64,000 nt of DNA from Torulaspora globosa. Its lineage: Eukaryota; Ascomycota; Saccharomycetes; Saccharomycetales; Saccharomycetaceae. A program made the translations under genes and the position numbers. The stretch is taken from positions 1-64,000 of the forward strand of contig NC_050728.1 of NCBI RefSeq assembly GCF_014133895.1. The letters run 5' to 3'. Under the pieces are notes generated by a model, which searched no databases, was not told where the DNA came from, and worked only from the letters and a program-made list of their open reading frames with translations. Below are positions 481 through 37,015 of the stretch, piece after piece. The first letter of the stretch is position 1. Each line of letters begins with the position of its first letter.

Positions 481-483
481 ATT

Positions 484-1180: not shown

Positions 1181-1620
1181 GTCGGACTTTGCCTTACCGG
1201 TCGTTATCGGCCGTTATCGCTCTCGGAGTTTTCGCACTTCGGCGATATCGGAATCCACCTCGGATATCGCTCCCCACGGAATACTGTCCCTGTTACCCCC
1301 GATTCGGGTCTTACGCTAAAATTTTGACGCGCTTTGGACACAGACCAGTGTTACATGACCACAACACAAAAGGTCTTGCGCAATCCGCTTTCTGCATTCA
1401 ACATTGCTTGGGTAAAGTATTTAATCACACCGGGATGTCTACCTCATCATATCACACGCTTATCACACCACAAAAGATCTTGTCAACCGTTGCTCGACGT
1501 TTCCTGGTTTAATTATACTTACTGTTGGTGAGTTGTCTCGTCTTAAGAGTGAGAATAAAAAACCTTTGTGTCGCCCGCGCCTCGCTGCGTCGGCTCCTTG
1601 AAAAAAAAAGACCCAAAAGA
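1181..1620. other. Unassigned subtelomeric spacer
   Basis: The minisatellite fades out here (gcagaagtttggc and gcagggtcctgtcgg are its last diverged units). No recognisable gene, RNA or element is visible; short frames on both strands show no protein-family features. Confidence 0.4.
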
Positions 1621-2012
1621 CTTTCTGCGACCCACGCAAAAAAAAAAATTGCGACGACGCGCGACGACGCGGGCAAGAAAAACTTATTCGACTTTTTCGG
1701 ATGTATGGGTTACGAGAATCTGGATGTATGGGTTTCAAGAACAGTCACACAGCCGGGATCTACTACCACCGATGGATTCTACGTGATCGGCTCTGTGTGC
1801 TACGGCTCTAAAACTTTCTGCGACCCACGCAAAAAACATTTTTCACCCTAGTTGCGACGACGCGCGACGACGCGCTCAAGAAAAACTTATTCCAGATTTG
1901 CGGGTGTATGGGTTTCATGAATCTGCATGTATGGGTTTTAAGAACAGTCACACAGCTGGACTTTGGTCGATCTACTACCACCCATGGATTCTGCGTGCTA
2001 TGATCGGCTCCA
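1621..2012. repeat. Direct repeat of about 193 bp, two copies
   Basis: Copy 1 starts at 1621 (ctttctgcgacccacgc) and copy 2 at 1814. Both carry gacgacgcgcgacgacgcg, gtatgggttt, agaacagtcacacagc and gatctactaccacc in the same order. The copies differ by small changes and short indels. Confidence 0.8.
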
Positions 2013-2476
2013 CTTGACCCCTGACAGGTACCATGTGCTATGATAGGCCCCTCTTGACCCTCTGCGTGCTATGACCGGCTCCTCTTGACGCTCTTTGATC
2101 GTTGTACCTCCCCGGGGGCCACTACATGCTCTTTGCCTCCCACTGACAGGTTCCATGCGCTATGATTGCTCCTCTGGACCACCCCCGGCTCACCTCCTCT
2201 TGTCTATCTGCTCCGCAACTGCACAAGTCAATCTTTGTTTTTGCTGGATTTTCTATTTGCTCGACTAAACTTGTATCTGCAAAATGCTGAGAAACCTAGG
2301 ACAAGATTTTGCAATAATCTGTCGTGAGAGATGCTATCTAGGTGTTACCCGGACTCTAGGCACGCCTGAAAATTTTCAACCGTCGAGGACGTTACTCATA
2401 GACGTCCAAGACAGTGGATAGCGGATGATGTACTAGGAGTGGGCTGCTGGTACGGGGCGTAATGTAGCTGTGATAG
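2013..2476. other. Short interspersed repeat and spacer
   Basis: Between about 1990 and 2180 the phrase gctatgatcggctcc (or a close variant) followed by cttgaccc recurs three or four times. The rest of the interval shows no gene or known element. Confidence 0.4.
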
Positions 2477-2705
2477 GCTCAAGTGTTTGGGAATAGGGTA
2501 GTTGGAGTGTGGATGGTGGTTTAAGTGTTTGGGAGTAAGGTTGTTGTAGTGTAAGGTCGGGGTAGTTTAAGTGTTTGGGAGTAAGGTTGTAGTGTGAGGT
2601 CGGGGTAGTTTAAGTGTTTGGGAGTAAGGTTGTTGTGGTGTTAGGTCGGGGTAGTTTAAGTGTTTGGGAGTAAGGTTGTTGTAGTGTAAGGTTGGGGTAG
2701 TAGAG
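2477..2705. repeat. 46-bp GT-rich tandem repeat
   Basis: Four good units share gtttaagtgtttgggagtaa, then ggttgttgtagtg and aggtcggggta; one of them lacks a few bases. A diverged unit precedes them. The plus strand is very poor in C, the mirror image of the G-poor tract at the window start, which recalls telomere-derived sequence. Confidence 0.85.
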
Positions 2706-2737
2706 TCGTTGGGTGTGGATAGTGGTCTGATATGATT

Positions 2738-3890
2738 CTTGGACTTGGTTATCTTGCGGATGGTAGACAGCTCATCCCAAGAGCAGTTCTCTTAACATTG
2801 TGCGGTGGATATGTCTCTTGCATGGTATCTTGCGAATGGCTCAGCCCGAGAGCAGTTCTCTTAACATTGTGCGGTGGATATGTCTCTTGCATGGTATCTT
2901 GCGGATGGTAGACAGCTGAGCCCAAGTGCAGTGGTCTCATCATTGCGCCGTGGATATGTCTCTTGCATGGTATCTTGCGGATGTAGACAGCTGAGCCCAA
3001 GTGCAGTGGTCTCATCATTGTGCCGTGGATATGTCTCTTGCATGGCATCTTGCGAATGGCTCAGCCCAAGAGCAGTTCTCTTAACATTGTGCCGTGGTAT
3101 GTCTCTTGCATGGCATCTTGCTAATGGCTCAGCCCAAGAGTAGTGGTCTCATCATTGTGTGGTGATTTCCTATGCTCTTATGATTCTTGAGGTTTGCGGG
3201 TTGTAGACTTCTTAGCCCAAGTGCAGTACTCCCTGCAGTGGTGGTTTCCCACGCTCTTGTATCATTTGAAGTGATGCTCTTTGATTCTTGTACTGAGGCA
3301 TCTTGCGAGTGGCCCAGCCCAAGAGCAGTGGTCTTAGCATTGTGCCGTGGCTATTTCTGTTCTTGCACTTGGGTATCTTGCGAATGGCCCAGCCCAAGTG
3401 CAGTACTCCCTGCAGTGGTGGTTTCCCACGCTCTTGTATGATGCTCTTTGATTCTTGGATATGGATATCTTGAGGATTTTAGACGGTTCAGGTCAAGTGA
3501 AGTGGTCTTATCACAGTGTGGTGGCTTTTTCTCCTCAAGTATGCGAATTGTAGACAGCCCAAGTGAAGTAGTCTTATCATTGCGCCTTATGAGTCTTGAA
3601 GTTTGCGGATTGCAGAAGGCCCAGCTCAAATGCAATGCTGTCGTGCCTTGGATATACGCCCTGGAGTGGTGATTTCCCATACTCCTGTATGATTCTTGCG
3701 AATGGCTCAGCCCAAGGGAAGTGGTGATTTCGCATGTTCTTGCATGGTACCTTGCGAATGGCCCTGCAGTAGTAGTTCTTAAACTCTCAAAGTGCCAAGC
3801 GCCCCTAGTGGTTTCCTTTGTATGATTCTTAAGCGTACCGACCTGCTCAAGTGCCAAGCGCAGTACTGCAAAGTGCCCCTCTCTTGCGAA
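2738..3890. repeat. 69-76-bp tandem repeats decaying into dispersed units
   Basis: Units read tatcttgcggatggtag or tatcttgcgaatggctcag, then cccaagagcag, a core such as ctcttaacattgtgc, and tatgtctcttgcatgg. They are clean from about 2745 to 3140 and become divergent and rearranged to about 3890. The overlapping frames on both strands (for example 2749-3048 and 3351-4040) are repeat translations, not genes. Confidence 0.85.
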
Positions 3891-4039
3891 ATCTGATTGA
3901 CTGTCGTTTACAACTGCGCCATTTGTTTTCGCGTCCTCGTCGTCGCGTCGCGCATAAAATTTTTCGCCATAAAATTTTTCGTCTCCTCGCCTCCATATAA
4001 AAGCACAGGTGTTTTTCTCCCACCCAGAGTAACAGCGCA

Positions 4040-4235
4040 AAGCCCAGGCAGTCCCCTAGGCCCTCTTGGCGCTATCTCTTGGGTCTTCTGGGCCTTAGTA
4101 AATCTCTTGCAGGGGTATAACCCCTCGTAGTCTCTTGCAGGGCCTCTGGCCCTACGTAAATCTCTTGCAGGGGTCTAGCCCCTCGTAGGGGGTCCTCTGG
4201 GCCTCTCGTAGTCTCTTGCAGGGCTTCTGGCCCGT
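4040..4235. repeat. Short tandem repeat around cttgcaggg
   Basis: The words aatctcttgcaggggt, agcccctcgtag and tctcttgcagggcctctggc recur about five times in alternating arrangement. No coding feature is supported. Confidence 0.7.
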
Positions 4236-19161: not shown

Positions 19162-20691
19162 TCAAATGAGGTCCGTGCCTTCTCTTTGGGGTAGGCATCT
19201 GCGGCGAATGAAATTTTTTAGGTCTTGGACGTTAATAACTCTATGCGCCTTTTGGTGGGAGTCTAGACTGATTTCATAAGCGTTGTCATGGATTTTTTTG
19301 ACGACGTAGAAGGGACCAACGTAAATGGGTTGTACCTTCATGTAGGCTTCTCTCTTAAAGTACGCATCTCTGTGGACGAGAACGTCATCTCCTCTTTCCA
19401 GGATCAGCGGTTTCCGTCCTTTGTTGTTATTAACTTCCATTTCTACCTGAGCAGCTTCTAAGCGTTCCTTCGCTTGTAATGTAATAGCTTTCAAACGTCG
19501 AGACATTTCGACGGCTGAAAAGTTTCTTGCATTAAGCTCCTCATCTGTCTTGAGCACCGGTTCGTTAGGAACGTATCCTAAGTCTATTTCAAACGGTGAT
19601 GCACCTAAAGTTCTATTTGCAGTTGAGTTGTAGACAAACTCAATTTGCGGCAGATATTTATGCCAATTTTCGATATCTGTTGAAGCGCATGCTCTGAGCA
19701 TTCTATTCAGTGTCTGGATGGTCCTTTCAGTTGACCATCCGTCTGGGGTGATTCGGGGTCGACATTGTTGATTTAATCCCCAGCCGTTTCGTGAATTCCT
19801 GATATTTGCCTGCAGTGATGCGGATATCTCTATCACTGGTGATAGTTCTCGAGAACCCATGATACGAAAACACATAGCGGAATAACAGGTCTATCAAATG
19901 AGATGTGTCGAGGGTTTTTCTTGTTGCAATGGAATGGGCACGTTTAGAAAAACGGTCTACCACAACCATGATCATGTTCAGGTTATTCGCTGTGGGCGGC
20001 AGTCCAGTAACAAAATCCATTGATATGTCCTGCCATCTTCCGTCCGCTACGGGTAGAGGGTTCAGCAAGCCGTGCTGGCGTGGTCTATGGGCTTTTATCA
20101 ACTGGCATTGGACGCATGTCCGGATATACCGCTCAATGGAATGTTGTAACTTTGGCCAGTAGTATATTGGGGCTATTTTCCCGATTGTAACTGTAACGCC
20201 AAAGTGCCCTCCGAACAAGGTAGATCATGGTATAGCTTCATGACATCGTTTTGATGGATTGTGGGTACAACGATTCGATCTCGGCAGTAAATTAAACCAT
20301 TGGATGTTGAGTACTTGCATCGGAAGGTCTCCGAGAGTAAGAATTTCTTCTGGTAACTTTGGAAAGCGGACATATCCTGGGCACTAACGTTGTGTCTCGT
20401 TAATTCTTTCATGTGAATTAGAGCAGCACTACATGGCGGGTCGGATTTATAATCCAATTTCCATTGTTCCAGATTCAGGGAAGCCGGTAGTTCAGATTCT
20501 ACCACGTACACCGCACGGGATATGGCATCTGCAACTACGTTCTTAGGACCAGCGAGATATTCTAGGGTGCAGTCATAGGTGACTAGGTCATCTAGCCATC
20601 CTTGAACCCTCCGGGCTGGCTCATTTTTATTCTGGAGTGACAGTAAACTGATATGGTCCGTTCTCAAGGTAAAGTGTGTACCATGCAGCAA
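19162..20691 (-). pseudogene. Ty3-like pol, RNase H end and integrase, frameshifted
   Basis: Three overlapping frames (20173-20691, 19727-20218 and 19162-19875) give the end of RNase H, the integrase zinc region and the catalytic core. Visible landmarks are TDHISLLSLQNK (RNase H end), the CVQCQL zinc pair, MDFVTGLP with the first catalytic Asp, SDRDIRITAG with the second, and a later TERTIQTLNR with the probable Glu. The last frame ends in a basic tail. Frame changes near 20200 and 19800 break the protein. A further piece, in another frame, continues to about 18906. Confidence 0.85.
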
Positions 20692-20732
20692 GTACCTGAA
20701 GTGTTGTAAGTCTTTAATAATGCCTAATAGTT

Positions 20733-22561
20733 CTAGTTCACCAGCAGGGTAGTTTTCTGAGCACTTTCTAACGATTTGGAGAAATAACCAACAACGGCAA
20801 TAAGCTTATTCTTGGCATTAACCTCCTCTAGAACAGCACCAATGCCATCTTTAGAGGCATCTGTGGTTAATCGGTAAGATGCTTTGCTTTTGAACAGAAT
20901 CAGTACCGGCGAATTGCAGAGCGCTGCTTTCAGCTTATCCACTGCTTTGTCTTGTAACTTGGTCCAACGACTTTTGTTACAAATAAACAATTGGATCGGT
21001 TGCGCTACCTGGGAGCAATTCGGAATAAATCGTCTATAGTAATTTATCATTCCTAAAAACCTTTGAGCTTCCTTTATCGTTTTAGGTGTCGGGTACTTCT
21101 CAACGGCCTCACATTTATTCTGTAAGGGTTCTATCTTGTTGACTCCGGTCTTATAACCTAAGAATTCGGTTTGCTTTGCAGCAAATCGACACTTTTTCCT
21201 CTTTACAATCAGATTCTTCTCTTGTAGAATGTTCAAAACCGTATCTAGATGACTCCAATGTTCTTCCAATGTTTCAGGGAAGATTAAAATATCATCTAGA
21301 TAGACAGTGACGAACTTCAACCCTCGGAAAATGTCAGCCATATATCTAGCGAACGTACTAGGTGCGTTAACTAGTCCAAAAGACATCACAGGGTACTCAT
21401 ATTTCCCAGATGGAGTCACGAAGGCAGTTTTATATGTGTCTTCCGGATTCATCGGGATCTGGTGGTAACCACTGTGCAAATCTAAGGTTGTAAAAACCTG
21501 CGCATTTCCAATACGGCTTAATAAGTTGTCAATTCTTGGTAATGGGAACGGGTCAGAAATGGTAATCTTGTTCAGCTCTCTGTAATCAACACAGAGTCGA
21601 AATGATCCATCTTTTTTGTCGACAAGGACGGCAGGAGAGAAGTACACGGGGACTTGGAAGGGACAAGCTTATTGATCTCTTGCTCAGTCTTTTGTGTAGT
21701 TTGATAAGGTTGGAGTCTTGGTAGACGAGCGTTCTTCTTGATTTCAATATCATGTTTCACGGGTGCCTCGTCTGAGCTTGAAAATCTAGGCGGAAGGTCA
21801 TTTCTAATCTTCCCATACTTTTGTTGAAGCCATGGGGGTAGCACATCAACGGTATCTTTCAACCTTTGTTCACGCACAACCACAGGTGCTAACCCTCTTA
21901 CACTTGCAACCAGGGACTTCTCTCCCATCTCCTCCAGGAATGCCGCTTCTTCAGGTAGCCTAATCTGCTCCAACTCTTGAACGATTAACTCGGGATCACC
22001 TGGATAACCAGGGTTGTCAAGCGCACTCGCTGTCTCAGAAGTAGTGGTAACAGGAGATGCACATTTGGCTTTACCACGATGGCCAATGGATTTCCGGTCA
22101 ATTGCTTCAAGAGTAGTGGTAGCAAGAGACATTTCAGGCCTTCTGGAATTACCACAATTACCAGTAGACTCAGGCTCAAGGTAGCTAACCTTGACACGAT
22201 TTTCACAAGCTTTCAGGTTCGGGGTCGATTCCAATATTATTGACAAGAGTTTCGGGTAGCGGCGGAGGATAGGATTGGCAATTAGCAGTTGATAGTCCAT
22301 ATTCTCCAGGATATATGCCACTACTGGGATCTGTAAGTCTTCTACCGGAACGGTTAGACTTACGGCTTCCGTTGTCGTTGACGCATCGGTAGGGATAAAC
22401 CCTCTGAATCGGAATGGTGGTGTCTCGTATGTCCTCAGGTTTAATAACTTCACCATATCCGAACGGATGAACGAAGTAGGCGATCCACTATCAAACAAGG
22501 TTTTCATTTTTTGTTTTTTGATGACGATTATCCATCTCCGGGATGGAAATATAATGTACAA
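20733..22561 (-). pseudogene. Ty3-like protease and reverse transcriptase, frameshifted
   Basis: Frame 21572-22561 begins with an aspartic protease active site (FDSGSPTSF) and runs through a linker toward the reverse transcriptase. A frame change near 21600 leads into frame 20733-21647, which holds the RT fingers and palm: LCVDYRELNK, DLHSGYHQIPM and the catalytic YLDD in FVTVYLDDILIF, then KCRFAAKQTEFLG. The RNase H part follows with another break. Family and order are those of Metaviridae (Ty3/gypsy). Confidence 0.88.
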
Positions 22562-23936: not shown

Positions 23937-24008
23937 TCCGATGTAGTGTAACGGCTATCACATCACGCTCTCACCGTGGAGACCGGGGTTCGACTCCCCG
24001 CTTCGGAG
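23937..24008 (+). tRNA. tRNA-Glu, anticodon CTC
   Basis: The 72-nt sequence folds as a standard cloverleaf: D-stem GTG/CAC, anticodon stem TCACG/CGTGG with loop CTCTCAC (anticodon CTC at 23970-23972), and T-stem CGGGG/CCCCG around TTCGACT (B box GGTTCGACTCC). It closely resembles yeast tRNA-Glu genes. The acceptor stem has one T-T mismatch at position 6:67, so function is likely but not certain. No intron. T-rich sequence after 24008 can end Pol III transcription. It lies between the Ty3-like element and the mating-type cassette. Confidence 0.92.
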
Positions 24009-24585
24009 TTTATTTTATTTCTAAAATAAAAAACCCCAGAAGTATGAGTTGCAGCAAAAATCTTGCATATGCCGCTCTCTTTTTTTGACATTGTAAATAG
24101 ACCGTTCTCTTAGCGAGATCCATATCCTATTCGTTCGGCGTGATGTGACGTAACATACTTACACCACGCATCTTTCCCAAAAAGGAAATTGTGCCTCTGT
24201 AGAGAACATAGTGAAATGTACCAAATTCTAGTGAATTTTGGCGAGTGAAGGGCTTCTGTCTTCTAAAGATATGAGACTTAACAATGCGAGGGTCAAATGG
24301 AGAAGGGAAATGTCTTCAGAAAGTTTACTCGGTTTCGAATGTGTGAATAATCGGATACCATTAAACTGATTTGTTGGGTTTTAAACGATCTCACAAGTTA
24401 TTCCTCTTCGCTTTAACGATGAAAACCATTGATCATGCGCATGTCACAAAGGTTTCGCTGTAATTTGACAATTTTGGACATGATTTCCATGTCATAAATT
24501 TGGAAATGAAAAGTGGCAAACCTTTCCTGAACGTTGAATATCAGGACGAAATTATATTTAATAGATTTTTTATCGCGTCATAGCA
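24009..24585. other. Spacer between tRNA-Glu and the cassette
   Basis: No gene is visible. The right end is the apparent outer edge of the cassette repeat, where SLA2-like coding sequence begins abruptly a few bases after an in-frame TAG. Confidence 0.5.
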
Positions 24586-24586
24586 T

Positions 24587-25162
24587 GTTGAATTCACTAG
24601 TACAACACTTAGACGCCTAAATCAAGATGTTGACGACCACGCAGCATTAGAGCAACTGAGTGAGCGCTATCGTATGCAGCACAGAGATCTTTTTGAGCTT
24701 TATGCTGATTGTTCTTCGATCAAGTCACTTACTTCGTTAATCAGCTTGCCAAAGTTACCACCAGAACCAGAGTCGTTTGATATGACTGACAAGACACCCT
24801 TGGAGAGAGCAAAGGTGCTTTCAACAGACCAGAGACTTGCCATTCATCTTGCTCTTCAATCAATTAATCATAGCCGAGAGCCAGTTTCGTTTTACTCCGT
24901 TTCCCAGCTTGCCAATGAGATAGCCGTTTCGGCAGAGCCCTCAATTCCAGCCATCATCCGGTTGACACATCAAGTAACAACATTGCTACAGCGCAACCCG
25001 TCCCCACTCCTCGCCCAAGCTTCTCAACTCTACTTCCAAGCATTACTTTCCCCCTCCCAACAAGACATCATCAATGCAAATACAAATCTACAAAATCTTT
25101 TAATTAACTCTCCCGCTCATATCTTTGATCCACCCACTCCACAAACCCACACTTCGGCTTGA
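24587..25162 (+). pseudogene. SLA2: SLA2 fragment fused to an unidentified reading frame
   Basis: From about 24587 the frame encodes a segment matching the end of the ANTH domain of Sla2, the clathrin and actin adaptor: RRLNQDVDDHAALEQL, then QHRDLFELYADCSSIK and LPKLP. Only about 70 codons match. The frame then stays open to 25162 through a hydrophilic, Gln/Leu-rich stretch I do not recognise. The first ATG inside it is at 24674. SLA2 flanks MAT in many yeasts, so the piece is probably copied MAT-flanking (Z-side) DNA. The frame runs toward alpha1 and overlaps its last codons on the opposite strand, and it lacks most of Sla2, so it is not a functional gene. Confidence 0.7.
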
Positions 25163-25700
25163 CAAAATTAAACTGCTGCGCAAAAGTGTCCCATATTTCT
25201 TGTTGTTCAGGATGTGAATGCCACGCGGATGCAAGCAGCGGGGATAAAATATTCTGTTTCAGACCATAGCCGAATTGGGAATTGTAAGCCCTAAATGCCA
25301 TAAAGGAATTAAGCGGCTTTGTGGAGGCACCTTTCCTAGCGGGCTTTTTATATATGTTATCTAATACATCGTTCGCTATGGAAAATAGTATTTCCTCGCT
25401 GTCCCAGGAAATTGGAGAGTCCCATAATGATCCCTTCTCCGCGGAGCTCTCGGACTGCAACTTCAGCTTCTCTTCCTCAATCTTCCGGAGCAAGGTATTA
25501 GGAGGAGAAGGAATCTTAATTGGTCCCAATTTTGCCATGAAGGTCTTGGTGCTTTTCTCCTTTGTATAGCCAGATGTATGAGAACAACTCCCTTCCATAC
25601 ACCGAGCTTTTGCTGGTCTACACTGACCAGGTTTCCGTTTAATCTGGACTTTGAACAGAGGTCTGTTAGCTTTGAACCCACGGAAAGATTTCTCGTGCAT
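25104..25700 (-). CDS. HMLALPHA1: Mating-type protein alpha1 (alpha-box transcription activator)
   Basis: The 198-residue protein carries the alpha-box at residues 129-190: LNSFMAFRAYNSQFG, LKQNILSPLLASAWH and IWDTFAQQFNFVKP, closely matching S. cerevisiae alpha1. Alpha1 works with Mcm1 at promoters of alpha-specific genes (pheromone and receptor) in the nucleus. The N-terminus is basic. The protein ends soon after GFVEWVDQRY, a shorter tail than in S. cerevisiae. The ATG at 25700 gives an alpha1-like basic start. The frame is intact. Because the copy is flanked by truncated SLA2 and DIC1 and sits near a chromosome end beside VAC17, it is read as the silent HML copy rather than MAT. Confidence 0.93.
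   Translation of the reverse strand: MHEKSFRGFKANRPLFKVQIKRKPGQCRPAKARCMEGSCSHTSGYTKEKSTKTFMAKLGPIKIPSPPNTLLRKIEEEKLKLQSESSAEKGSLWDSPISWDSEEILFSIANDVLDNIYKKPARKGASTKPLNSFMAFRAYNSQFGYGLKQNILSPLLASAWHSHPEQQEIWDTFAQQFNFVKPKCGFVEWVDQRYERES
25163..25186 (-). other. HO-type cleavage site at the Y/Z boundary
   Basis: On the minus strand TTTTGCGCAGCAGTTTAAT codes for the alpha1 residues FAQQFNF. It matches the HO site of S. cerevisiae MAT (CGCAACAGTATAATTTT), which lies in the same alpha1 codons. It marks the expected Y/Z border of the cassette. Confidence 0.65.
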
Positions 25701-26119
25701 GGCAGTAGTTTGACGATTCTGGTAAGGTAACCAGGACGGTTTTGACGAACGTTAGGCGTTACTCTTTATACTCGAGAATTAGCCTAAATTAACCCTAGCG
25801 CTGTTTCATATTGATTTTTGTCTGCTCTACATAGAGGGACATCATTGCGCATAGAGCCTCAAAACAAAACTATGCACCGTACACCATACAGCTGGAGCTC
25901 TCATATATCTACTCCAAACACTGTATTGAAACGGGGAGATTGCTTAAGGGGAAGTTCGATGACAAAAGCTGTAGTTTTAATCATTGTTGATTATTTTTAC
26001 AGCGGCTAATAATCTCTCAGTGTGTACCGCCCGAACTCTATGAAACAACCCTGCTCCTCACCACATATTAAAAACTGACTGGAAAGCAGACGAAGAAAAA
26101 AAATTATGTAAAAATGTGA
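25701..26119. other. Y-alpha promoter region without an alpha2 gene
   Basis: In most yeasts a divergent alpha2 homeodomain gene begins here. The three plus-strand frames contain no homeodomain and no frame longer than about 60 codons. The region is therefore alpha1 promoter plus residual Y sequence up to the apparent Y/X border near 26120. Confidence 0.6.
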
Positions 26120-27139
26120 ACAAAACTCTGCTATAGCTCTGCAATCACTTCACAACTATGGGGGAAGAATGATGGAATATTTCAGCTATACTTTGAGCTT
26201 CTTTCACAATTAGAAGAGCACTGGCATCTAAACATTTATCCTGAGTATCGTTACCATAAAGTCAATAAAATAAGTCGGCAACTGGAGAATAAGCTCGTGT
26301 ATCAGAATATGTTAAATCGGATGCGCTTTTTTACAGCATCTTCGCTGTCATCGAAATTGGAAGGTATTCTAAGCTCCGCACGTGCTTCTGCTGCGGATAC
26401 TGCCGCTGATGCCCCTGCTGCTCCAGGTGTTCCCCTTGCCGCCGATCCGGTCGGTTCCACCTATGCCTACTCTTCGTTGTCCTCTTATCAAGATGGCGTA
26501 AACCATCAACTTCCTTCTCGCCAACAAAACCGCCCGGTGACAAGTAGTGTCGAGCCAGCTACAAATCGACAGCTCGGGCAACAACAAGATCCAGCAAACG
26601 TCCCAGACCGCAATCCCTTCAAGACACATCACGACAGATGCTTCAGGCCCAAGAGCATGAAGAGTGATACTAAGAGAGTCCGCAAGCAGAGGTGTACGGT
26701 AAAGATGCAGGGTCACATGTGTGATCGGATCAAGCTTGGCTCGGAAAAGAAGGAACGCCGTGCTACCGCGCACCCTTCGAAGAGACTGAAAGTATCCGGA
26801 GTTACCAGAACCGGTGGTTGCAGATCACCGAAGAGGGATACAAAATCTCTATGTCCTATAACCATTGGACAGAAAGAAGATCCTTGTGAGATGGCATTGG
26901 ATCCTTCTTTATCGGTTGAGAAGTACGGCTCATTCATTTCCCAGCATAACCAAGCAACCGGTTCGCCTCTTCGAGGCGACCCGAGTCGTTGCGACGTCTC
27001 ATCCACCGCTTTGGCGTCTGTGCATGCCAGCGCCAAGAACATGAGTTCCCTCGGCTTCGATTCCAGCTCATTGCACTCGAAGCTGCGGTGTATGGTTGGC
27101 ACCAAGCAGCATCTGGAAGTACAAGATCTTTATGTTTAA
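26120..27139 (+). pseudogene. 5'-truncated HMG-box mating-type gene (a2-like 3' part)
   Basis: The frame opens at 26120 and runs to 27139 with no start codon at its head. It begins in the second half of an HMG box: AITSQLWGKNDGIFQLYFEL, then EEHWHLNIYPEYRYHKVNK, which fits the final helices and the YPdYrY motif of MATa2-type HMG proteins. The first half of the box is missing, and no frame upstream supplies it. A long Ser/Ala/Arg-rich tail of about 280 residues follows. The simplest reading is that a2 spans the Y/X border at MATa, and this alpha cassette keeps only the X-encoded 3' part. The frame stays open, as expected if gene conversion keeps X identical between cassettes. Confidence 0.65.
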
Positions 27140-27741
27140 CCTGCGCGCAGATCCACTCGCTCGCCCCTCCTATCCTTCTTTTGGAGCCGTTTCGCCGTCA
27201 GAAGAGGAAAGCTTCAAAAGGGTTGCGTGGTAGAGAATGATACATCTCTCAGCGGTTCAGACCATATCACAACGAGGGGAGATCAATTGCCTGTTGAATC
27301 AGATCTGCTACTAATTTACTTGTGTCAAGAGAACTAGTGGAGTATTGAGCACTCGGGCTATTAAAATGAGTGGAAAGACGCGAGACACATTCGGTTCAAG
27401 AGAGGAAAATCATCAGGATAGCTTTCTAACTGCGCCTGTTTTCCGTCCTCCCTTCTGGATCACAGATCTAATAACAAATTTTGAATTAGGCTTATTATTA
27501 TTCCACAACCTACCATTATTATCCATGGGTTTTTATTTCCATGTTACTGTCGCCGGTTTCTTTTTTTTTTTTCCTTGGGTTTTCTCGTTTCAATGATCAT
27601 CTTCGTCCTCACTGTATAATCCTCAATGCTTCGTGATATGTAAAATATAAGCTGAGGCATGCTTTTTTTTTTCCCAATCTCAGGCAATTTGACTTCGAAG
27701 GGCGATAGCACATAAACTGCGCTCAGCACAGTTCAAAGGTC
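27140..27741. other. Spacer inside the cassette X side
   Basis: It joins the a2-like 3' end to the DIC1 start. No further gene is supported. It holds the presumed DIC1 upstream region, with long T runs near 27560 and 27665. Confidence 0.45.
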
Positions 27742-28455
27742 ATGTCCGGCAAAGTGGCGATGACAGACACCCCAATCAAGTACCCCTGGTGGTATGGCGG
27801 TGCGGGTGGCATTTTTGCTTGTATCGTCACCCATCCACTTGATCTAGCCAAGGTTCGCCTTCAGACCGCCTCTCCGCCAAAGCCAACGCTTCTGAACATG
27901 ATTCGAAGAATCTTACAACAGGAGGGACCTCGTGGACTTTATGCCGGGTTGAGCGCCTCTGTTCTTCGGCAGTGCACCTATACCACCGCGAGATTCGGGT
28001 GCTACGACATCATTAAGGAAAATTTAATCCCCCAGAGCGAGATCAATAATAGTTTGTATCTTTTACCATGTTCAATGTTGAGTGGAGCAATCGGTGGTTT
28101 TGTAGGAAATCCAGCAGATGTCGTCAACATCAGGATGCAAAATGACTCAGCACACGATCCACATCTAAGAAGAGGTTACCGAAATGCATTTGATGGGTTA
28201 AACAGTATTGTTAGGGAAGAAGGCTTTTATAAGCTTTTTACGGGACTGGCGCCAAACTTAATAAGAGGTGTCTTGATGACGGCCAGCCAAGTAGTCTCTT
28301 ATGATGTATTTAAGCATCGTTGGGATTTATTATGTTTGGAAAGATATGTCTTTAATACTACTTTTTGCGCGTTGTGTAGTACTTCGTTTATCACCAGGTT
28401 TCTTAGTATATTATTGTACTTCTCGCTCTTTTTAGCTATGTTTCAACTTTATTAG
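27742..28455 (+). pseudogene. DIC1: 3'-truncated DIC1 (mitochondrial dicarboxylate carrier)
   Basis: The first 191 codons match Dic1, the inner-membrane dicarboxylate/phosphate carrier: the start YPWWYGGAGGIFA, first carrier motif THPLDLAKVRLQ (residues 30-41) and second GNPADVVNIRMQ (122-133). A full carrier needs three repeats and about 300 residues. Here homology stops after SYDVFK at about 28314 and an unrelated hydrophobic tail of about 46 residues follows. The third repeat is absent, so transport activity is not expected. DIC1 borders MAT in many pre-duplication yeasts, so this is best read as MAT-flanking DNA copied with the cassette; its break marks the X-side outer edge. Confidence 0.85.
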
Positions 28456-31400
28456 GCGATTTCATTGTCTAGAACTGCTCACGGTATCTGGAGCATCATT
28501 AATTGATATAGGTACCGTTTTGAAGACAAAGCTATCTTCTCCTTTAGATTTTGCAATTCCTGCTCGTCAGGTTTTCTAACTGTTCTAGATTTCTTTCTCA
28601 TTTCAGTTATTTCATATCAATGAGCTCAATGTTCTAGATTCCCATTTGAGAAGTAGCCACACGCTTTTTGAAGTTGATATGAAACGGGTCTACAGTGGAT
28701 AGCTGTTTTATCATAGAGGAAATCTTTTCGATCGTCAAAGATCGTCAAAGAGCAATCCATTAAAATTACGTCTACAACCGGGAATAAGCGATAGTCGTGA
28801 GTCTGCACAGAAAAGGCGATAAAAAATACCTTAATTAAACATTTAAACTTTTTAATCAATGCTCATATGGTAAGAAATATCATGTACTGGAGCTAATGTG
28901 TTTAGTGAAGCTATGCATGAATCAATTCGAATAGAATGTCGATCTGTTATCGAGACAATGACTCAAATAAAATTTGGCTTATGTCCCTTTTTATGTCTTG
29001 TCTCTGGATCACTTCTTTCATTGATTAGAAATTTTGATCTTCAGCAGAGCATATATCCGAGAATGCTGATTATGAACATGGTAGCGCACAAAAAAAGGTC
29101 CTAAATATCCAGCTGATCTTTTCAAGACAGCATTCTTTGGTTGCATTTCTTTGGATCGATATAAGGGCTTGTTGTTGTTTTCATGACAATAACTTGGTTA
29201 CTGTGTAAGGACTAAATCGATTTTGTACTAAATCTCATATACCCGTGTCTGCGATGTCAAGTTTTGTTGGGTTACTCCTTTTTGTGTATTTTTGCAGCTT
29301 GTCTTCTACTGGTAACTTCATCTTCTTTTATGAACCTTTCCGACGCAAGCCAAGAGCTGTTATGAAAGAAATATATTAAACTAAATGAGAGCGTCATATA
29401 ATTTTTATGAACTTTGCCTATCGATTGGTTCATGTTAGGCAAGCGCTATTTGGTAATGCCATGCGGCAACGGAAGAGGCAGAGGCTTGTCGGCGTTAAGA
29501 TGCGGCAAACTGACCTGAAATTAATTGAAACGGTATTTAATAGTTGTTCCATATTGAGGCATTAGAATCCTTTATGAGACATACAATAGAGTTTATATGT
29601 ATTGCGCGAAATTTAAGCTGGGTGTCGTATAATGGAAATTGTGCGCTACTACAGAAGAAGATACTAAACTCGTAGAATAGTTACCTCTTGCTCAAGAAAT
29701 TTCTGTATCACAAATAAAAATAGATTTAGTCACAAAAAGAACCGCATGACCTTATCTGGCGACTATCCAAATCCTTTAGCTGGATAAACCCAGAAACACG
29801 CGCAAGCCTATCACCGGTAACGTTCTTTCTAAGCACTATCCAATGCAACACTTTGACAGCTTCAAGATTCTGCGCGCAAGATAACTCACAAATTTGTTGC
29901 CTGAGGTTTCAAATGCTCTTGAGTGCTAAAAGATCATAGATCAATATCCAAACTCTGGTAGCATTTGCCCGAGCTTTTTATGTATTATATATACAATAAA
30001 ATCATGCGTTATATGAAATCGAACAAAATAGAGATTATATAATTATTTTGCTTGACTTATATGGGATTACTTTGATGCTTTTTAAATAATGATGATTAGA
30101 TAATTCATGAATAATTATGATGGCTTCATTTTTACTTTTATAATAAAGTATTGTTAGATACATCAACGAAAATAATGGCATTAAAGCCTTCTATTAAAAA
30201 TCCATTTCTTGTGAAAGAAAATCGTCTTTCAACCTCACTTCATTGATTTTTCGACAGATTTAGTACGATAATATACTATTATTTCTTCATAGGTATATAT
30301 TTTTTATTTATTTTCTGTGTAATGGAACATAAGAATCCTTGCTGAATACAGCAATATAATAATTATTATAAAAGCAATAATAAATAGAAACATGTACTTT
30401 ACGCAAACTAATTTTCGTTCTGATCCATTTTCGATGAGAGTAATTTTTTATATTTTGTGTCACTATGATATGATTTAAGTTCCGTAAATTTATACGCCTT
30501 AATTTTCTGTTAATAAAATTTCAGGATTAAATGTATCGAAAATATAACTTGTAGGTCAAAATTGCGTAGCAATTTAGAAGACTAGTTCAGATACTCTCAA
30601 AATCAAATTAATGGTAATCATGAACTTTATTTTACAATTGTAACTTTTTTCTCTAGCTATTTACATCACACATTTGTCTGATCTCATCTGCTATTTTTAT
30701 TTATGTACCTTTGCTCTAGGGTCTCATAAAAATAATCTAGAATTCTAACAATTCATATCCACAGATATATATTCACCCTAGCATCTTTGTTAGCTTTAAT
30801 TGGATTGTTTTCGGTTTAAGATTAATCGTCAGCAGGGTATTTATTATGATTGCGTTAGCAATTTTAGTTCTCACAATAATGCCTACTAATTTTTTCATCC
30901 TCAGTTTCGTTCTTTTAACCGATAACTTACTATTTTGTAGTTGAAAGATTTCTATTGCTATAGAGCAGAGTTACATTTCACCTATTTTAGCGAACCTTTT
31001 TACTTAAAGTATTCTTTGTACTTTCATTGATGGATACTGCATCTTAATATGCGACAAATTATATTTTTGTAATTTATTATTTAAACGGTGGCTCTACAAT
31101 GCGCCATGGAGGGTCCACTGGCCATATTATAGGTGATTTTTATAACTATACCATTACTTCAGGATTTTTCTGCTTATAGCTTTGAATAATGATATATTTT
31201 ACAATCTACCTCATTAATATTTGTCGTATCTGCAACTGAGCGAGATTATTGAAAGTCGTTAATATATAAGGTTCCGAAGGTAGAAGAAAGAGAATCATAA
31301 TTATTCTTTCTACGACATCAAGCTTTAGTTTTATCAAAATTAAGATAAATGTATAGCAAATTTTCAACTACTTCCTTCTCGCGCCGGCCTATGAGGACCA

Positions 31401-32908
31401 GCGCGGGACTAAAGTTAAGTAATAAGAATAGCTAATTCCATTAATCTAATAAATATAAAATATCAGACGATAACAGAGAATATTCAGTAGAGGACCAAAT
31501 AACTTGACTATTTTTTATTTTGATTGGCTAAATTACTTTATAAGTTGGAATATATGGTCTATGTGTGTAGTCTTCGAGAGAACCACGTTGCATTCTTCAA
31601 TATTGAAAAATAATAATATCCTACTAATTGAACCTGCGAATCGTTCTGGGTTCAGTTAAAAGCATGTTATTGAATAACTTAAGCCGCACTAATGGTGATA
31701 ACCGCGTCCTTTGTGGTTTGTGTCAGGATTTGGACATTTTTTTTTCTCAGTATATATGTTGTCCAGATTCACAGATGTAATTTATCAAAGAGTGGTAGGC
31801 TCCGCGGTACTGAATCTCTTCTTTCTTAAGGTCATTTTCAGTCATATATACAGAGAGCACGTTATACACTGCAATCAAGTACCCTCAATTTGACATTACC
31901 CGAAAACTCTGCGTGCTTTCTTTTTGGGTTCGTCACAGTTTTAGGTTTAAAATTAGATACCCGGTGTGGACGCAGTTCTGGCTATTTCAGCTGTTCGGTT
32001 TGAGCGCATGAGCAGGCACCAGTCAGGATCATTTTAGCTCTATCTTGCTCAAATTTGCTGCTTGGAGCGAGCATTGCCGACAGTCAATTCTACTAAGGAA
32101 CTATCCTAAAAGTTACAAAAATCTGGCGTTCCTGGAGATATTTGTGATACCATGGGTGTGCTTATGTAGATTCTAATTCTAGCGGCTTCATATCGTTAGT
32201 TTACTAGAGATTAGATTAGACTGCTCTTGGGATAGATACTAGCATCTCCCCACGAGTTTTCTAGAAAGGAGAACCTTTCAGCGTCAAACGTGGGGCTGTA
32301 CGACGGCTTTCGCCACTTCATTTGAAATCCGCTTATCGCTACTACAGCTTTGTGAGATAAGGCAATTAGGTCAATTCATTTTTTATTATAGCGGATAGAT
32401 CAAGGAAAAGCAAGCAGATTTACGCTAGAAGGACGCTGCCTATCGAATTTGTGAGAAAGGAGCATTCTGCTGCAGGATACATTTCATATTGAAAGCCACG
32501 AGGTGCAGCTGCCTAAGATAATCAGCTGATCTTTACACGGTTCGATCATCATCTAGTTAGCGTGTCACCGTGGAAAAACCAAAACCCTATTTCTATGAAG
32601 ATATCAGCTTTTCTAGATAGAGGCCATTTTAGAGCTACACCACGGCTCGACTTTGGTGCACGGCTGAATATAGTATCAGCGAACTGAATACGAGTTTGAA
32701 AGGGCAACCACTGTTCGCAGCTAGAGTCGATCGCCAAACTTTCAAGTTGCACGGTTGTTTCGTTTAAGATGACTTCTTATCTCGTCTTTTCCCGTCTCCG
32801 CTTACTTTGTTGCTCCTTCGCGAAAATCTTGATGAGATTTAAAAACAATGTCAACTTGAAGCCAACCAGAGATATTAACTGAAGTATAGCCTACTGGAGT
32901 CCGAAAAG
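28456..32908. other. AT-rich gene desert next to the cassette
   Basis: About 4.4 kb contains no frame that looks coding; the longest (28626-28859, 28898-29104, 31711-31893) are short and unconvincing. The part from about 29940 to 31700 is strikingly AT-rich. It includes an exact match to the ARS core WTTTAYRTTTW at 30446-30456 and one isolated GC-rich block at about 31378-31412. No tRNA was seen. Confidence 0.6.
30446..30456 (+). other. ARS consensus match
   Basis: TTTTATATTTT matches the 11-bp S. cerevisiae ARS core exactly, within AT-rich DNA about 2 kb from the cassette. A replication origin, possibly also acting with a silencer, is plausible but such matches also occur by chance in AT-rich DNA. 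Confidence 0.3.
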
Positions 32909-34168
32909 ATGACGCAGCTTGAGGATATATCAGAGCGGCTGCTAACCAGATCCCAAGAAGCCATCTTGCAATTAGAAATATGGATTCGAAGACAGCAACA
33001 TCTGCGCGAACTGGAAGATGACTCGATTGACAGGCTAGGAGATCAATATAACATATACATTGCGCAACTTAATTCGCTATGCATAAGATCCGAATACGTT
33101 CGTGATAAGTTGAATAAGGAGCGGGAGCGCCGTCTATCTTTGATTAACGACCGCAAGTATATTGAGAACTTAGTTCTTGAGTTCCAAGATATTACAATCA
33201 AGCTCAATGAGCTTGCGCATTGCCGAAGTTCTCATTCGACACCTTGTTCCAAATCTACCAGAAGCAGCTTAGATTCCTTCCAGCCTAGACCCTTGAAACT
33301 GACTGAACGTCATGGATCCAAGATCAGAGAAACTCGCGAATCTCCGCTAAAAAGAAAGCCCTTCATGCAGAATGTTGAATTTGCAGATATCCCAGAGTCT
33401 TCAAATTCGAAATGTCTATCATTGCCTGGATCGCCGGTAAAGGGAACAACGACTGAGAAGTCGATCCGAATGGCCAAATCGTATGATACTGGTCTGAGGC
33501 CTAAGAAAAAAAAGGCGTCAAATGGAGATGGCGATAACGAAATCAGGTCATTTTTCAAAGAAAATCAGCGCTTGTCGATAAGCTTTTTTGGAGAATATGA
33601 CGACGACGTCGATTCAACATCTGATCAAGATACTGTTATCTCAGTGAGCCCCGCTTGTCCGCCAAAAGGAGTACCTTTGCGAAGATATAACTCACATGAA
33701 AGCATATTTTCAACCAAAATTGAGCCTATCAACTTCGAAAAAGGTCATTCTTCATTCCTTCTCCCAGCCTCGACCAGGCCGTCGATGACAAGCGCGCGCG
33801 TGAGCAGTGCAGCCGTATTTTCCAGGACAACGGGACCAGGTAGTTCGAAGGATCTGCTTTCGACCTTTATTGCTGGGCACAGTGAAGCGCGAGTGATAAG
33901 TGGAAAAAGGCAGGAGACAAAATCGAGCTCCTTTTTTTCTCGATGGAACCTTTTTGGCAGTAGCTCAATACCGAACCAAGCAAAAGTCAATGATAATGCA
34001 AGTGCTGAGGTGCAGCGTAACTTTTCAAGTTCTTCATCGCTGGCAGCAATTTCTTCCATCAATATCTCACCGCCACGCTCGAAAATACCCGTATTTGATA
34101 GCCTGATATCGTATGATGACCTTCGTGATGCTTTAGACACAGAGCTCATTTTAGCGGCTGAGCTCTGA
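32909..34168 (+). CDS. VAC17: Vac17, vacuole-specific myosin V receptor
   Basis: The 419-residue protein matches the size of S. cerevisiae Vac17 (423) and sits in the same place, beside MRC1. Vac17 links Vac8 on the vacuole to the Myo2 tail and so drives vacuole inheritance into the bud. The N-terminal 100 residues are predicted coiled coil (Myo2-binding part in the family). The rest is Ser-rich with the phrase LSISFFGEYDDD. Several Ser/Thr-Pro sites (RESPLKRK, GSPVKG, SPPRSK) suit cyclin-dependent kinase control. Identification rests on length, architecture and synteny because Vac17 diverges fast. It converges with MRC1, with 81 bp between the stop codons. Confidence 0.8.
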   Translation: MTQLEDISERLLTRSQEAILQLEIWIRRQQHLRELEDDSIDRLGDQYNIYIAQLNSLCIRSEYVRDKLNKERERRLSLINDRKYIENLVLEFQDITIKLNELAHCRSSHSTPCSKSTRSSLDSFQPRPLKLTERHGSKIRETRESPLKRKPFMQNVEFADIPESSNSKCLSLPGSPVKGTTTEKSIRMAKSYDTGLRPKKKKASNGDGDNEIRSFFKENQRLSISFFGEYDDDVDSTSDQDTVISVSPACPPKGVPLRRYNSHESIFSTKIEPINFEKGHSSFLLPASTRPSMTSARVSSAAVFSRTTGPGSSKDLLSTFIAGHSEARVISGKRQETKSSSFFSRWNLFGSSSIPNQAKVNDNASAEVQRNFSSSSSLAAISSINISPPRSKIPVFDSLISYDDLRDALDTELILAAEL

Positions 34169-34249: not shown

Positions 34250-37015
34250 TTACGTTTCGAAGCTGCTGTCGAAACTTCCAAAAATCTTACGTTTTCCAAG
34301 GGATGCCAATTCGTCCAGTTTGGGTTTGAGAGGCCTGTTTGCTTTGGGGGCAACAAGCTTTCGCATTTTAGCCAGGTAGGTAATTGAAGTCTTACTTCCG
34401 CCAACTGTCCTGTATGACTTAGAAACAGTAACTGTCTTCTTCCCATTTTTGAGCTTGTTTTCTAGGTCCGACCTATCACCGAACGACTTGACTACGGAGA
34501 TGTAACGACCTTCAGCTGGGAGAGTATATGAGTAGTCTTCTTCTTCAGTTTTGGCCGAATGAGGGTTATCCAAAGATTTCACAGAGCTGCTTCGCTTTAG
34601 GTTGAGCAAATCAGTTCCTAAACCATCTTCTCCAGCGGGTTGTGTAACGTCAAATTCGCCGCTGTCTCTGCTACCATTCAAGAAAGATAACCTTTCTAGG
34701 ACAAACTCTCGAGAAATTGCAACCGTCTCCTTCGTATCATGTTTATCATCTTGAGCTTCAACCTTCTGCGCTTGATTTTCAAATGGACCATTTTCCATCA
34801 AATCTTCAAGCATGCTGTCAAAAAACGCCTTGGATTTCGTATTCTTCAGAAGCTCCGAATTGCTTTGTCCGAACTGAAGTCTCTTTTTCCTCATTGTTTC
34901 TAATCGTTTCCTCCTGTAGTTTCGAAGTTCATCATCCTCATAATCACTTAGTTCCAGTTGTAAGTCGTTGTTGCGCCTCTTTCTGAACCCGCCGTTCTTT
35001 AGGTCATTAAGTATTTTGTTGACTGTTTTTAAATCTGTTTCTTTGTTTTCTGCAATAAGCAACTGTCGTATTTGATTCGCATTGGATGTTGTGTGAGAGA
35101 AATCATCGATCATCTTCTCGAGGTCAGAATCGTAATTATCGATGCTTTCTCCTTCGGCACCACCTAATCCATGCCATTCATCGTCTGATTCTTCGGCTTC
35201 CATATCGAACATATTGCTTACGCCGCTTTTTCTCATTTCGTTTATTTCTTGACTCTCCTTCAGCGCTCTCCGTTTCATCTCCTCTTTGATGAAATTTCTG
35301 TGTTCCCTTTCTAATTCTTCAGTAACAGGTTGGGTATCCTCGTCTCCACTATAGTGACTTTCTTCACTGACACTTTTTGTAGATAGATTTCCTCCATATG
35401 AACCAAGATCTATACCTTCTTTGATCGAGTCATCGTTTTCGTCGCTCAAGTCATTTTCGCTGAGAATTAGAGTCTTATGAGCTCTAACCTTACTTCTCGA
35501 TATATTTTCATCGTCACTTTCATATATTGGATCGGCATTTTCTGCTGGTGTCTTTTGGGCTTGTAAGGACGTTTCATCTTGGTCTGACTCAAAATTCGAG
35601 TCGTCAGAATTACTTCCGGAGAGAGAAAATCTATCGCTTTCAACTTCTTGAGATTTATTAGAGTGCATTAAAGTAAATCCTTCCTTATCTGCTTTCTGAG
35701 GAGACGAAGTTCGTACGCTTCTATTATCTTTTTCTCTTTCACGCATTCTTATACGTTTATTACGAGCGATTTCTTGTTCCAACAGATTCTCAACCATCTC
35801 CTTTTCCTTTTCGATGTCTTGCAACTTCATCCCATGTCGTTCTACCATCTCCTTTTGGCATTGAATAATCTGCTCCTTAGAAGCTTTCCTAAGATTGCTT
35901 ATCAATGCAGTGAGAGACGCTCCTCCTCCGCGAGCTTTGGTTCGCACCTTCCGCTTTGATATTCGTGCTCTAATTTCCAGCACAGTTGCCTTAGACGCAA
36001 ATGATGGCGATACTCTGTCATCTTCGCTACTCTCACTCTCCGAAGAGAGTGCAATGCCATGGTGCTGCTCCAGTTGTTGTTTGAGCTCGCGCTCATATGC
36101 ATTAAGCGACCCTGATTTATGTACTGTCCTGCTTCTCTGTTCAAGTTCATCACTGTTCTGCGTATTGTGGATCGCCACTGTCTGCTGATATGGCACTTCG
36201 GAATCTGAATCACTACTATTATCAAAATCTTTCATAAAAGCTTCTCGAGAAAAAACTACATTCTTTTGAGATGTTGCTTTTTGGGCTTCAAACTTTGTGT
36301 ATGTTGGTTCGTTTTCATTTTTCAGTTGTTCTTGAATCTCATGGATCTTCAGTTTTGTAGGGTCATCAAAATCTGCTGCTGTCGATTGTAAATCATTGCA
36401 TGATACAGCGTCATCATCGCAGGGCGTTAATATTTGAGGGACCTCAGAAGACTTGGTCTGCGACACAATTTTCGCCGTTCCCTCTGAAGCTTGTTTCGGC
36501 TCCTTCATGGGTGAAATCAGTTGCGTTCTTGCCTCAGCTGAGCACTCGAGAATAGGCTGAGTCATTCCATCAGCATTCGAACCTGCATCTGAAATAGTCA
36601 TGGACCTACGTCTCCGAAAGGCTTCGTCAGCGGTCGGAGGGCTTTTTAGCCCTTCTTGCTTGCCAATAAGGCCATCATTAATAGCATGTAATACAGGTTT
36701 CTCATTGGTTTTTGGCTTAGGCTGTATCACCTTTTGATTCCATTCTTTCGCTGTCAAAGTTTCCGTTTCCACCTCTTCAGCGTCGCCATACAGGTTAGAA
36801 AGCATTGAAGTCTCACTGAAATGTACTGTTTCGCAGCTCTCATTATCCAACCTCTTTTTCACCCTGTTTAATACATCACTTTGAAACAGAAATCCATCTC
36901 CAAGAACAGCTGAAAGGGATGCCTCAGGTGGTTCGTCATCGTGCCGTAAAACCTTTTTATAAGTGGTTTTCCTTCTTGTCTTTGCAGCATCTAAATCCTG
37001 AAGTAGTTGATCCAT
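34250..37015 (-). CDS. MRC1: Mrc1, replication checkpoint mediator (Claspin homologue)
   Basis: This 921-residue, highly acidic, Ser-rich protein corresponds to Mrc1, which travels with the replisome, activates Rad53 when forks stall, and supports normal fork speed. The conserved Mrc1 core appears around residues 610-750 (DNYDSDLEKMIDDF, IRQLLIAENKE, LRNYRRKRLETMRKKR). Earlier there are coiled, basic helices (VENLLEQEIARNKRIRMR). The family is phosphorylated by Mec1 at SQ/TQ sites. It is somewhat shorter than S. cerevisiae Mrc1 (about 1096). Two MCB boxes upstream predict G1/S expression. It lies between VAC17 and KRR1 exactly as in S. cerevisiae. Confidence 0.92.
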   Translation of the reverse strand: MDQLLQDLDAAKTRRKTTYKKVLRHDDEPPEASLSAVLGDGFLFQSDVLNRVKKRLDNESCETVHFSETSMLSNLYGDAEEVETETLTAKEWNQKVIQPKPKTNEKPVLHAINDGLIGKQEGLKSPPTADEAFRRRRSMTISDAGSNADGMTQPILECSAEARTQLISPMKEPKQASEGTAKIVSQTKSSEVPQILTPCDDDAVSCNDLQSTAADFDDPTKLKIHEIQEQLKNENEPTYTKFEAQKATSQKNVVFSREAFMKDFDNSSDSDSEVPYQQTVAIHNTQNSDELEQRSRTVHKSGSLNAYERELKQQLEQHHGIALSSESESSEDDRVSPSFASKATVLEIRARISKRKVRTKARGGGASLTALISNLRKASKEQIIQCQKEMVERHGMKLQDIEKEKEMVENLLEQEIARNKRIRMREREKDNRSVRTSSPQKADKEGFTLMHSNKSQEVESDRFSLSGSNSDDSNFESDQDETSLQAQKTPAENADPIYESDDENISRSKVRAHKTLILSENDLSDENDDSIKEGIDLGSYGGNLSTKSVSEESHYSGDEDTQPVTEELEREHRNFIKEEMKRRALKESQEINEMRKSGVSNMFDMEAEESDDEWHGLGGAEGESIDNYDSDLEKMIDDFSHTTSNANQIRQLLIAENKETDLKTVNKILNDLKNGGFRKRRNNDLQLELSDYEDDELRNYRRKRLETMRKKRLQFGQSNSELLKNTKSKAFFDSMLEDLMENGPFENQAQKVEAQDDKHDTKETVAISREFVLERLSFLNGSRDSGEFDVTQPAGEDGLGTDLLNLKRSSSVKSLDNPHSAKTEEEDYSYTLPAEGRYISVVKSFGDRSDLENKLKNGKKTVTVSKSYRTVGGSKTSITYLAKMRKLVAPKANRPLKPKLDELASLGKRKIFGSFDSSFET

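Follow-up and report, generated by a model that had tools for sequence, protein, structure and literature searches.

A probable subtelomeric HMLalpha donor of Torulaspora globosa in a proposed four-cassette switching system with apparent loss of alpha2 and a1

Introduction

In Saccharomyces cerevisiae, HMLalpha is a subtelomeric alpha donor that lies by VAC17 and MRC1 and carries an HO site at its Y/Z border. In Torulaspora globosa, the opening 64 kb of contig C2 (NC_050728.1; hereafter the window) contain a block with an alpha1 gene near VAC17, and this locus raises the question of what it donates to MAT and what a switch would change in the cell. Having searched the 9.28-Mb genome (8 contigs), we propose, with a probability of about 85%, that the block is a subtelomeric HMLalpha donor in a four-cassette, HO-type system from which alpha2 and a1 have been lost, and in which switching swaps activators. 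In S. cerevisiae diploids, a1-alpha2 shuts off HO and the mating genes and permits meiosis (PMC4827841).

Results

The window block is an alpha cassette identical to MAT

Querying the genome with a 4.2-kb sequence returned six places, which are pieces of four cassettes. Base-by-base comparison showed that positions 24630-28318 of the window are identical over 3,689 bp to the sequence from C2:251092 onward, an identity long enough to rule out chance, and that the two sequences diverge immediately beyond 24630 and 28318. A sequence-only reading of the window had placed alpha1, an HO-type site and truncated SLA2 and DIC1 in one block near VAC17 and expected a second copy in the genome; all of these elements were located, and the identical copy lies at C2:251.1-254.8 kb. 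The outer edges given in that reading (24585 and 28314) fall 45 and 4 bases from the limits of identity. Its reading as a putatively silent alpha cassette with broken SLA2 and DIC1 at the edges is supported by the MAT copy, an HO-like gene, an HO-type site and two a-type donors.

The copy at 251 kb runs into a whole DIC1 gene (293 amino acids, three carrier repeats), as had been anticipated, and on the other side into SLA2, represented there by its N-terminal ANTH part. Further out, we take the neighbours past SLA2 to be CRS1, CWC25 and SUI1, and the one past DIC1 to be PEX2. The original position of MAT is DIC1-MAT-SLA2 (PMC3628578). We therefore identify C2:251.1-254.8 kb as MAT and the window block, which adjoins VAC17 and MRC1, as HML. 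Genome searches found at least two alpha-box places and at least two Ya places. That HML and MAT do not differ at a single base, even in Y, suggests recent conversion between them. The left end of the window resembles the left ends of contigs C1 and C4 piecewise, in repeats of subtelomere type (window 168-4094 against C1 1-3695), and because these repeats are common to the C1 and C4 ends we place a telomere near it, although the 200 bases at that end show no telomere repeat.

Within HML, an open frame at 24584-25162 (plus strand) is a 3' fragment of SLA2, identical from 24630 on to the end of the MAT copy of SLA2; its last 59 nucleotides overlap the 3' end of alpha1. The Z repeat common to MAT spans 24630-25180 (551 bp, identical); its inner part, 24950-25180, also occurs in both a-type donors, with 3 mismatches in 231 bp. 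MATalpha1 lies at 25104-25700 on the minus strand and encodes 198 amino acids with an alpha-box (Pfam MATalpha_HMGbox, 9.2e-10); among 15 proteins including the query, it is 88% identical to T. globosa HG537_0B00200, and the next best match is at 70%. Y-alpha (25181-26137, 957 bp) holds the bulk of alpha1 plus 437 bp. The X repeat common to MAT occupies 26138-28318 (2,181 bp, identical), of which the a-type donors share only the part up to 27614, and ends in a 5' fragment of DIC1 (27742-28318, plus strand) whose frame continues to 28455 through unrelated sequence. Beyond it stand VAC17 (32909-34168, plus strand; Pfam, 8.1e-115), the syntenic HML neighbour, and next MRC1 (34250-37015, minus strand). 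From this anatomy, HML is probably a silent, donor-type cassette.

The Y/Z borders carry an HO-type site, and the genome has an HO-like gene

The HO-type core CGCAGCAG (25173-25180, minus strand) forms the opening bases of Z, and the Y/Z border falls exactly at it in HML and in the donors on C1 and C4, in alpha and a cassettes alike. In Zygosaccharomyces sapae, Z starts with CGCAGC (PMC4065246), the same core as here. Genome-wide, the HO-family model gave 14 matches, one of which is an open frame of 581 amino acids on C4, recognised by the Hom_end_hint and Hom_end models and lying beside an Hsp70 gene. We presume the latter to be SSB1, a neighbour of HO, and on that basis take the 581-residue gene to be HO. 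Three features of the three-locus HO system of Saccharomycetaceae are found: a MAT locus with donors sharing X and Z (four cassettes in total), an HO site within alpha1 at the Y/Z junction, and an HO endonuclease gene, the 581-residue one. Because of the site at the border and the HO-like gene, we read the block as an HO-type donor.

Among the remaining HO-family matches there are presumably WHO-like genes and the intein of VMA1. Three WHO-like genes with unbroken frames of 614-625 amino acids were seen at C1:1517939, C2:709965 and C3:227696, and several further matches lie in shorter frames elsewhere. One WHO-like gene sits between PRE7/ERD2 and SOD1/URA7, by the gene names as we read them, and we take MIN6 to lie beside URA7; the CMC4 and RKM5 sites were not matched here. 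CMC4, RKM5 and MIN6 are named as insertion sites in T. globosa CBS764 (PMC7282813). Together with the alpha1 match to T. globosa, this makes CBS764 the most likely strain.

Two a-type donors share a shorter core and carry a candidate MATa2

Two a-type donors lie on C1 and C4, some 18-21 kb in from the left end of each contig. Their subtelomeres are near-identical, agreeing at 99.6% for 13.3 kb and at 95-98% from there to roughly 22.3 kb, and the Ya of C1 equals that of C4 except for one missing base. The sequence-only reading expected HMR copies to share sequence up to the edges of the block; what they have in common is limited to 24950-25180 and 26138-27614. In the X part, 26138-27614, there are 4 mismatches over 1,478 aligned positions (C1 against the window) and 6 over 1,481 (C4 against MAT). 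On the Z side, the BLAST piece spans 242 bases, 11 of them beyond the HO site, with 3 further mismatches there. The Z in common is accordingly 551 bp for HML-MAT and 231 bp for HMR-MAT, and the X in common is 2,181 and 1,477 bp.

A Sir1 ORC-binding domain gene (468 amino acids) adjoins HMR on C1, and the only other place in the genome that the Sir1 model matches is next to HMR on C4. In T. delbrueckii, KOS3 lies about 1 kb from HMR and has a key role in silencing (PMC6405483), an arrangement that the Sir1-family gene beside both HMRs resembles. Since HMRa is doubled (C1:14.7-22.3 kb and the corresponding stretch of C4) and each copy has its adjacent Sir1-family gene, the putative silencing gene has been duplicated along with its target.

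An open reading frame (ORF) at 26309-27139 in the X repeat of the window extends upstream in both a cassettes to encode a protein of 437 amino acids, which differs by 1 residue between C1 and C4. Residues 71-143 aligned to the HMG box of SOX-5 with a score of 67, whereas none of 2,000 shuffles scored above 51. The a2 HMG box of Z. sapae extends over residues 72-145, partly in Ya and partly in X (PMC4065246); here too the Y/X border falls inside the box. From its place, the Z. sapae-like position of the domain and the SOX-5 comparison, the predicted 437-residue gene is MATa2. The whole gene occurs only in the a cassettes on C1 and C4, and the alpha cassettes keep a headless 3' part (26138-27139 in the window, plus strand). 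Each idiomorph holds one activator, a2 or alpha1, as in Hanseniaspora. Genes for both pheromone receptors, STE2 and STE3, have unbroken frames and occur at one place each. Neither the a2 identity of 26138-27139 nor the lack of a recognisable alpha2 had been noticed in the sequence-only reading.

No alpha2 or a1 gene was found in the cassettes or among the homeodomain loci of the genome

Neither a MATalpha2 nor a MATa1 homeodomain gene, the two parts of the a1-alpha2 circuit, turned up in any of the four cassettes or among the three homeodomain loci returned by the genome searches. The Pfam models PF00046 and PF05920, both of which recognise S. cerevisiae a1 and alpha2 (the homeodomain parts used agree with PDB chains), matched the same three genome places each, all far from the cassettes. 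We then scanned six-frame translations of four cassette stretches of 9.0-9.9 kb for helix 3. The strict motif, present in 2 of 3 control loci, matched a single time, near window 30204, in a stop-filled frame beyond the cassette, and nowhere in the Y regions; the relaxed motif, present in all three controls, matched 3, 1, 2 and 2 times in the HML, MAT, C1 and C4 stretches, respectively, never inside a cassette.

An alpha2 profile built from 12 proteins gave no cassette frame more than 1.7 bits, compared with 36.9 at one control homeodomain locus. Searches with tblastn, for which the queries were 38 alpha2 proteins together with the a1 of S. cerevisiae, gave only marginal cassette matches, the lowest E value being 0.020 for an a1 match on the strand opposite to that expected of a1; alpha1 queries reached 1e-70 or better in HML and MAT. 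The 437 bp from the start of alpha1 to X contain no frame above 64 codons on the alpha2 strand. In the 613 bp from the HO site to the start of a2, minus-strand frames do not exceed 92 codons, and a plus-strand frame of 155 codons lacks a homeodomain. No a1-alpha2 operator was found within 2 mismatches upstream of alpha1, a2 or HO, a result of little weight, as the scan had no control.

Several points weigh against this interpretation. In an open PDB search with the 437-residue protein, SOX-5 came second with an E value of 0.27, and Pfam gave no match to the a2 box. On a second, more distant control homeodomain locus the alpha2 profile scored 1.8 bits, about the level of the cassettes, so the profile detects close relatives only. 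For a1, the queries were general homeodomain models and a single sequence, that of S. cerevisiae. As the genome was read in six frames without introns, an intron-split homeodomain could score low; the last helix of the S. cerevisiae homeodomain lies within one exon. Finally, both the silence of HML and the absence of a1-alpha2 control are read from sequence.

How widely the loss extends is the most substantial of the alternatives, and we regard a loss confined to this strain or assembly, rather than species-wide, as unlikely but worth keeping in view. The DNA-level reading covers one genome. Of the 56 proteins in the alpha2 profile search none is named as Torulaspora, and with 38 of them carrying no name this does not amount to absence; the named Torulaspora or Zygotorulaspora entries among the 15 proteins of the alpha1 search are one from T. 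globosa and one from Zygotorulaspora mrakii. Against a local accident, alpha2 is gone from both alpha cassettes and a1 from both a cassettes, that is, two genes at four places, and the other T. globosa record has an alpha1 protein with no alpha2 named for it among the 56 matches.

We consider it improbable that this is a standard HMLalpha whose alpha2, like the a1 of HMRa, is present and has merely diverged beyond recognition. Mating-type proteins do evolve fast, and Y-alpha holds two weakly alpha2-like stretches. At 26055-26102, the translation SSPHIKN*LESRRRKK resembles the alpha2 recognition helix SGPQIKNWVSNRRRKE, with a stop at the tryptophan, and against one Z. rouxii alpha2 the match extends to 25863-26102; the alpha2 profile prefers an overlapping stretch, 26089-26142, in a different frame. 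Yet both stretches contain stops, and shuffled sequences reach their scores: 1 of 200 shuffles for the long alignment (score 49), 12 of 200 for the short one (score 43), and, for the profile score at 26089-26142, 5 of 400 shuffles and as many of 400 genomic pieces. Overlapping in different frames, the two cannot both be relics. Moreover, the longest frame on the alpha2 strand has 64 codons, compared with 222-225 residues in Zygosaccharomyces-like alpha2 proteins. An initial assignment of 26040-26102 as a clear alpha2 pseudogene was lowered to suggestive, given the shuffle scores and the conflicting second stretch; these stretches may at best be relics.

That the block is a dead relic of a duplicated MAT and no working donor, as its broken SLA2 and DIC1 might suggest, is more improbable still, since its 3,689-bp identity to MAT including Y-alpha, the open alpha1 and HO frames and the conserved HO-type sites point to recent conversion.

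SLA2 is truncated at MAT itself

The sequence-only reading expected a full-length SLA2 at MAT. The gene there (positions 2474-3625 of the stretch C2:248000-257900, L007), the single SLA2 gene located in this genome, encodes only 383 amino acids, an ANTH part and a stub, and ends inside Z, where its 3' end overlaps the 3' end of alpha1 by 59 nucleotides on opposite strands. Its closest solved relatives are Sla2 ANTH domains (3.7e-92). The ANTH model matched four genome places, two of which are SLA2 (the MAT gene and the HML fragment); the other two, considered as a true SLA2, were rejected because they match clathrin-assembly protein and Epsin-3 chains. The I/LWEQ model had no match in the genome, and nor did an S. 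cerevisiae THATCH piece that Pfam recognises at 6.6e-33. An empty genome search shows little without a positive genome, and here the ANTH matches show that SLA2 is searchable. A PDB search with the SLA2 tail revealed no relation to Sla2; compared with a piece of the Sla2 rod, the tail gave a score reached by 10 of 2,000 shuffles, which is suggestive. Gene erosion beside MAT has been described, after Gordon et al. 2011 (PMC3628578, PMC6405483).

The orientation of the cassette is ordinary for the clade

Judged by S. cerevisiae coordinates, the cassette is indeed inverted relative to S. cerevisiae HML, as the sequence-only reading stated. The consequence drawn from it, that orientation bears on whether switching proceeds by conversion or rearrangement, does not follow, because the orientation of HML relative to MAT decides this, and the two agree: they lie in the same orientation on one contig, 222.8 kb apart. 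In Z. rouxii NBRC1130, VAC17 adjoins HML on the MAT side, and PEX2 and SUI1-CWC25 flank MAT; by our reading of these descriptions, the X side faces VAC17 (PMC3628578, PMC6405483). Orientation as a special feature was accordingly rejected, the Z. rouxii order being equivalent (mirror-image, with VAC17 facing MAT). In themselves, neither the cassette nor the way it points is unusual in this clade.

Features flanking HML

A 12-mer, ATTTTTTATCGC, stands inverted outside both cassette edges (24565-24576 and 28816-28827). These are its only matches in the window at up to 1 mismatch, and the MAT, C1 and C4 stretches have none. We dropped it as a silencer candidate, as by our own estimate one shared 12-mer is near chance for AT-rich flanks of about 1 kb. 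Between HML and VAC17, 28456-32908 is a 4.4-kb interval with no ORF of 80 amino acids and a G+C content down to 25%, a possible place for a silencer, an origin or a recombination enhancer. On the telomere side, a tRNA-Glu (CTC) gene lies at 23937-24008, about 620 bp outside the Z edge; in S. cerevisiae a tRNA gene bounds HMR silencing. A Ty3-type element with broken frames (19162-22507; protease, reverse transcriptase and integrase-end parts) lies 5' of the tRNA-Glu gene.

Discussion

The cassettes comprise MATalpha and HMLalpha on C2 and two HMRa donors on the near-identical subtelomeres of C1 and C4. On this observed anatomy, and by homology with S. cerevisiae and Zygosaccharomyces, we infer how cutting, repair and silencing may proceed. 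HO would make its cut in MAT at CGCAGCAG, where Y meets Z, and the Z-side end would enter a donor through the Z repeat, which contains SLA2. Y would then be copied, and the exchange would close in the X repeat, in the 3' part of a2 and, for HML, the start of DIC1. As alpha2 and a1 appear lost from all four cassettes, switching would swap activators only, exchanging alpha1 for a2, both of HMG type: alpha1 would turn on alpha-specific genes in MATalpha cells, and a2 would turn on a-specific genes in MATa cells. Without alpha2 and a1, an a/alpha zygote could not form the a1-alpha2 repressor, and HO, mating and entry into meiosis must therefore be controlled otherwise. The likeliest life cycle would be mainly haploid, with the zygote going straight to meiosis.

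Compared with S. cerevisiae HMLalpha, the Z side here faces the telomere, alpha2 is missing and an a2 tail is present. Z. rouxii and Z. sapae have three-locus HML/MAT/HMR systems with HO, with alpha2 in Y-alpha and a1 in Ya, neither of which was found here; in addition, HMR is doubled on two subtelomeres in T. globosa and the MAT SLA2 is itself cut down. In Hanseniaspora, MAT holds only a2 or alpha1, and the a1-alpha2 repressor is apparently absent (PMC10970870); it is classed as heterothallic, in a family with only heterothallic species in the survey (PMC6692504). The single activator per idiomorph, a2 or alpha1, recurs in T. globosa, but in contrast to Hanseniaspora, which is heterothallic and without donors, this genome has donors and an HO-like gene. 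Loss of alpha2 is described in several other yeasts, and Blastobotrys lacks MATalpha2 genus-wide; B. proliferans carries alpha1 and a2 at separate sites and is classed as primary homothallic (PMC6692504). T. globosa resembles Blastobotrys in having no alpha2 while alpha1 and a2 are both present as genes, and differs from B. proliferans in having a switching system with donors.

We found no report of a1 or alpha2 loss in an HO-bearing, cassette-carrying yeast among the main texts covered, a set outside which most subscription papers fall. The main text of the paper found on T. globosa and the MAT locus does not mention MATa1, MATalpha2, MATa2 or a homeodomain, and the consulted main text of a 2019 survey of budding-yeast mating systems does not contain the word globosa.

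On balance, and with more reserve than for the cassette system itself, we favour a wider picture in which T. globosa would be an HO-bearing switcher without the a1-alpha2 diploid sensor: the a2/alpha1 swap would set mating type, some other signal would control HO, mating and meiosis of the zygote, and the same erosion may have removed the actin-binding half of the only SLA2. If true, this would be a yeast with HO, donors and both receptors but no a1 or alpha2, and would offer a test of what halts switching and starts meiosis. It would also represent a further route to the two-activator state besides Hanseniaspora.

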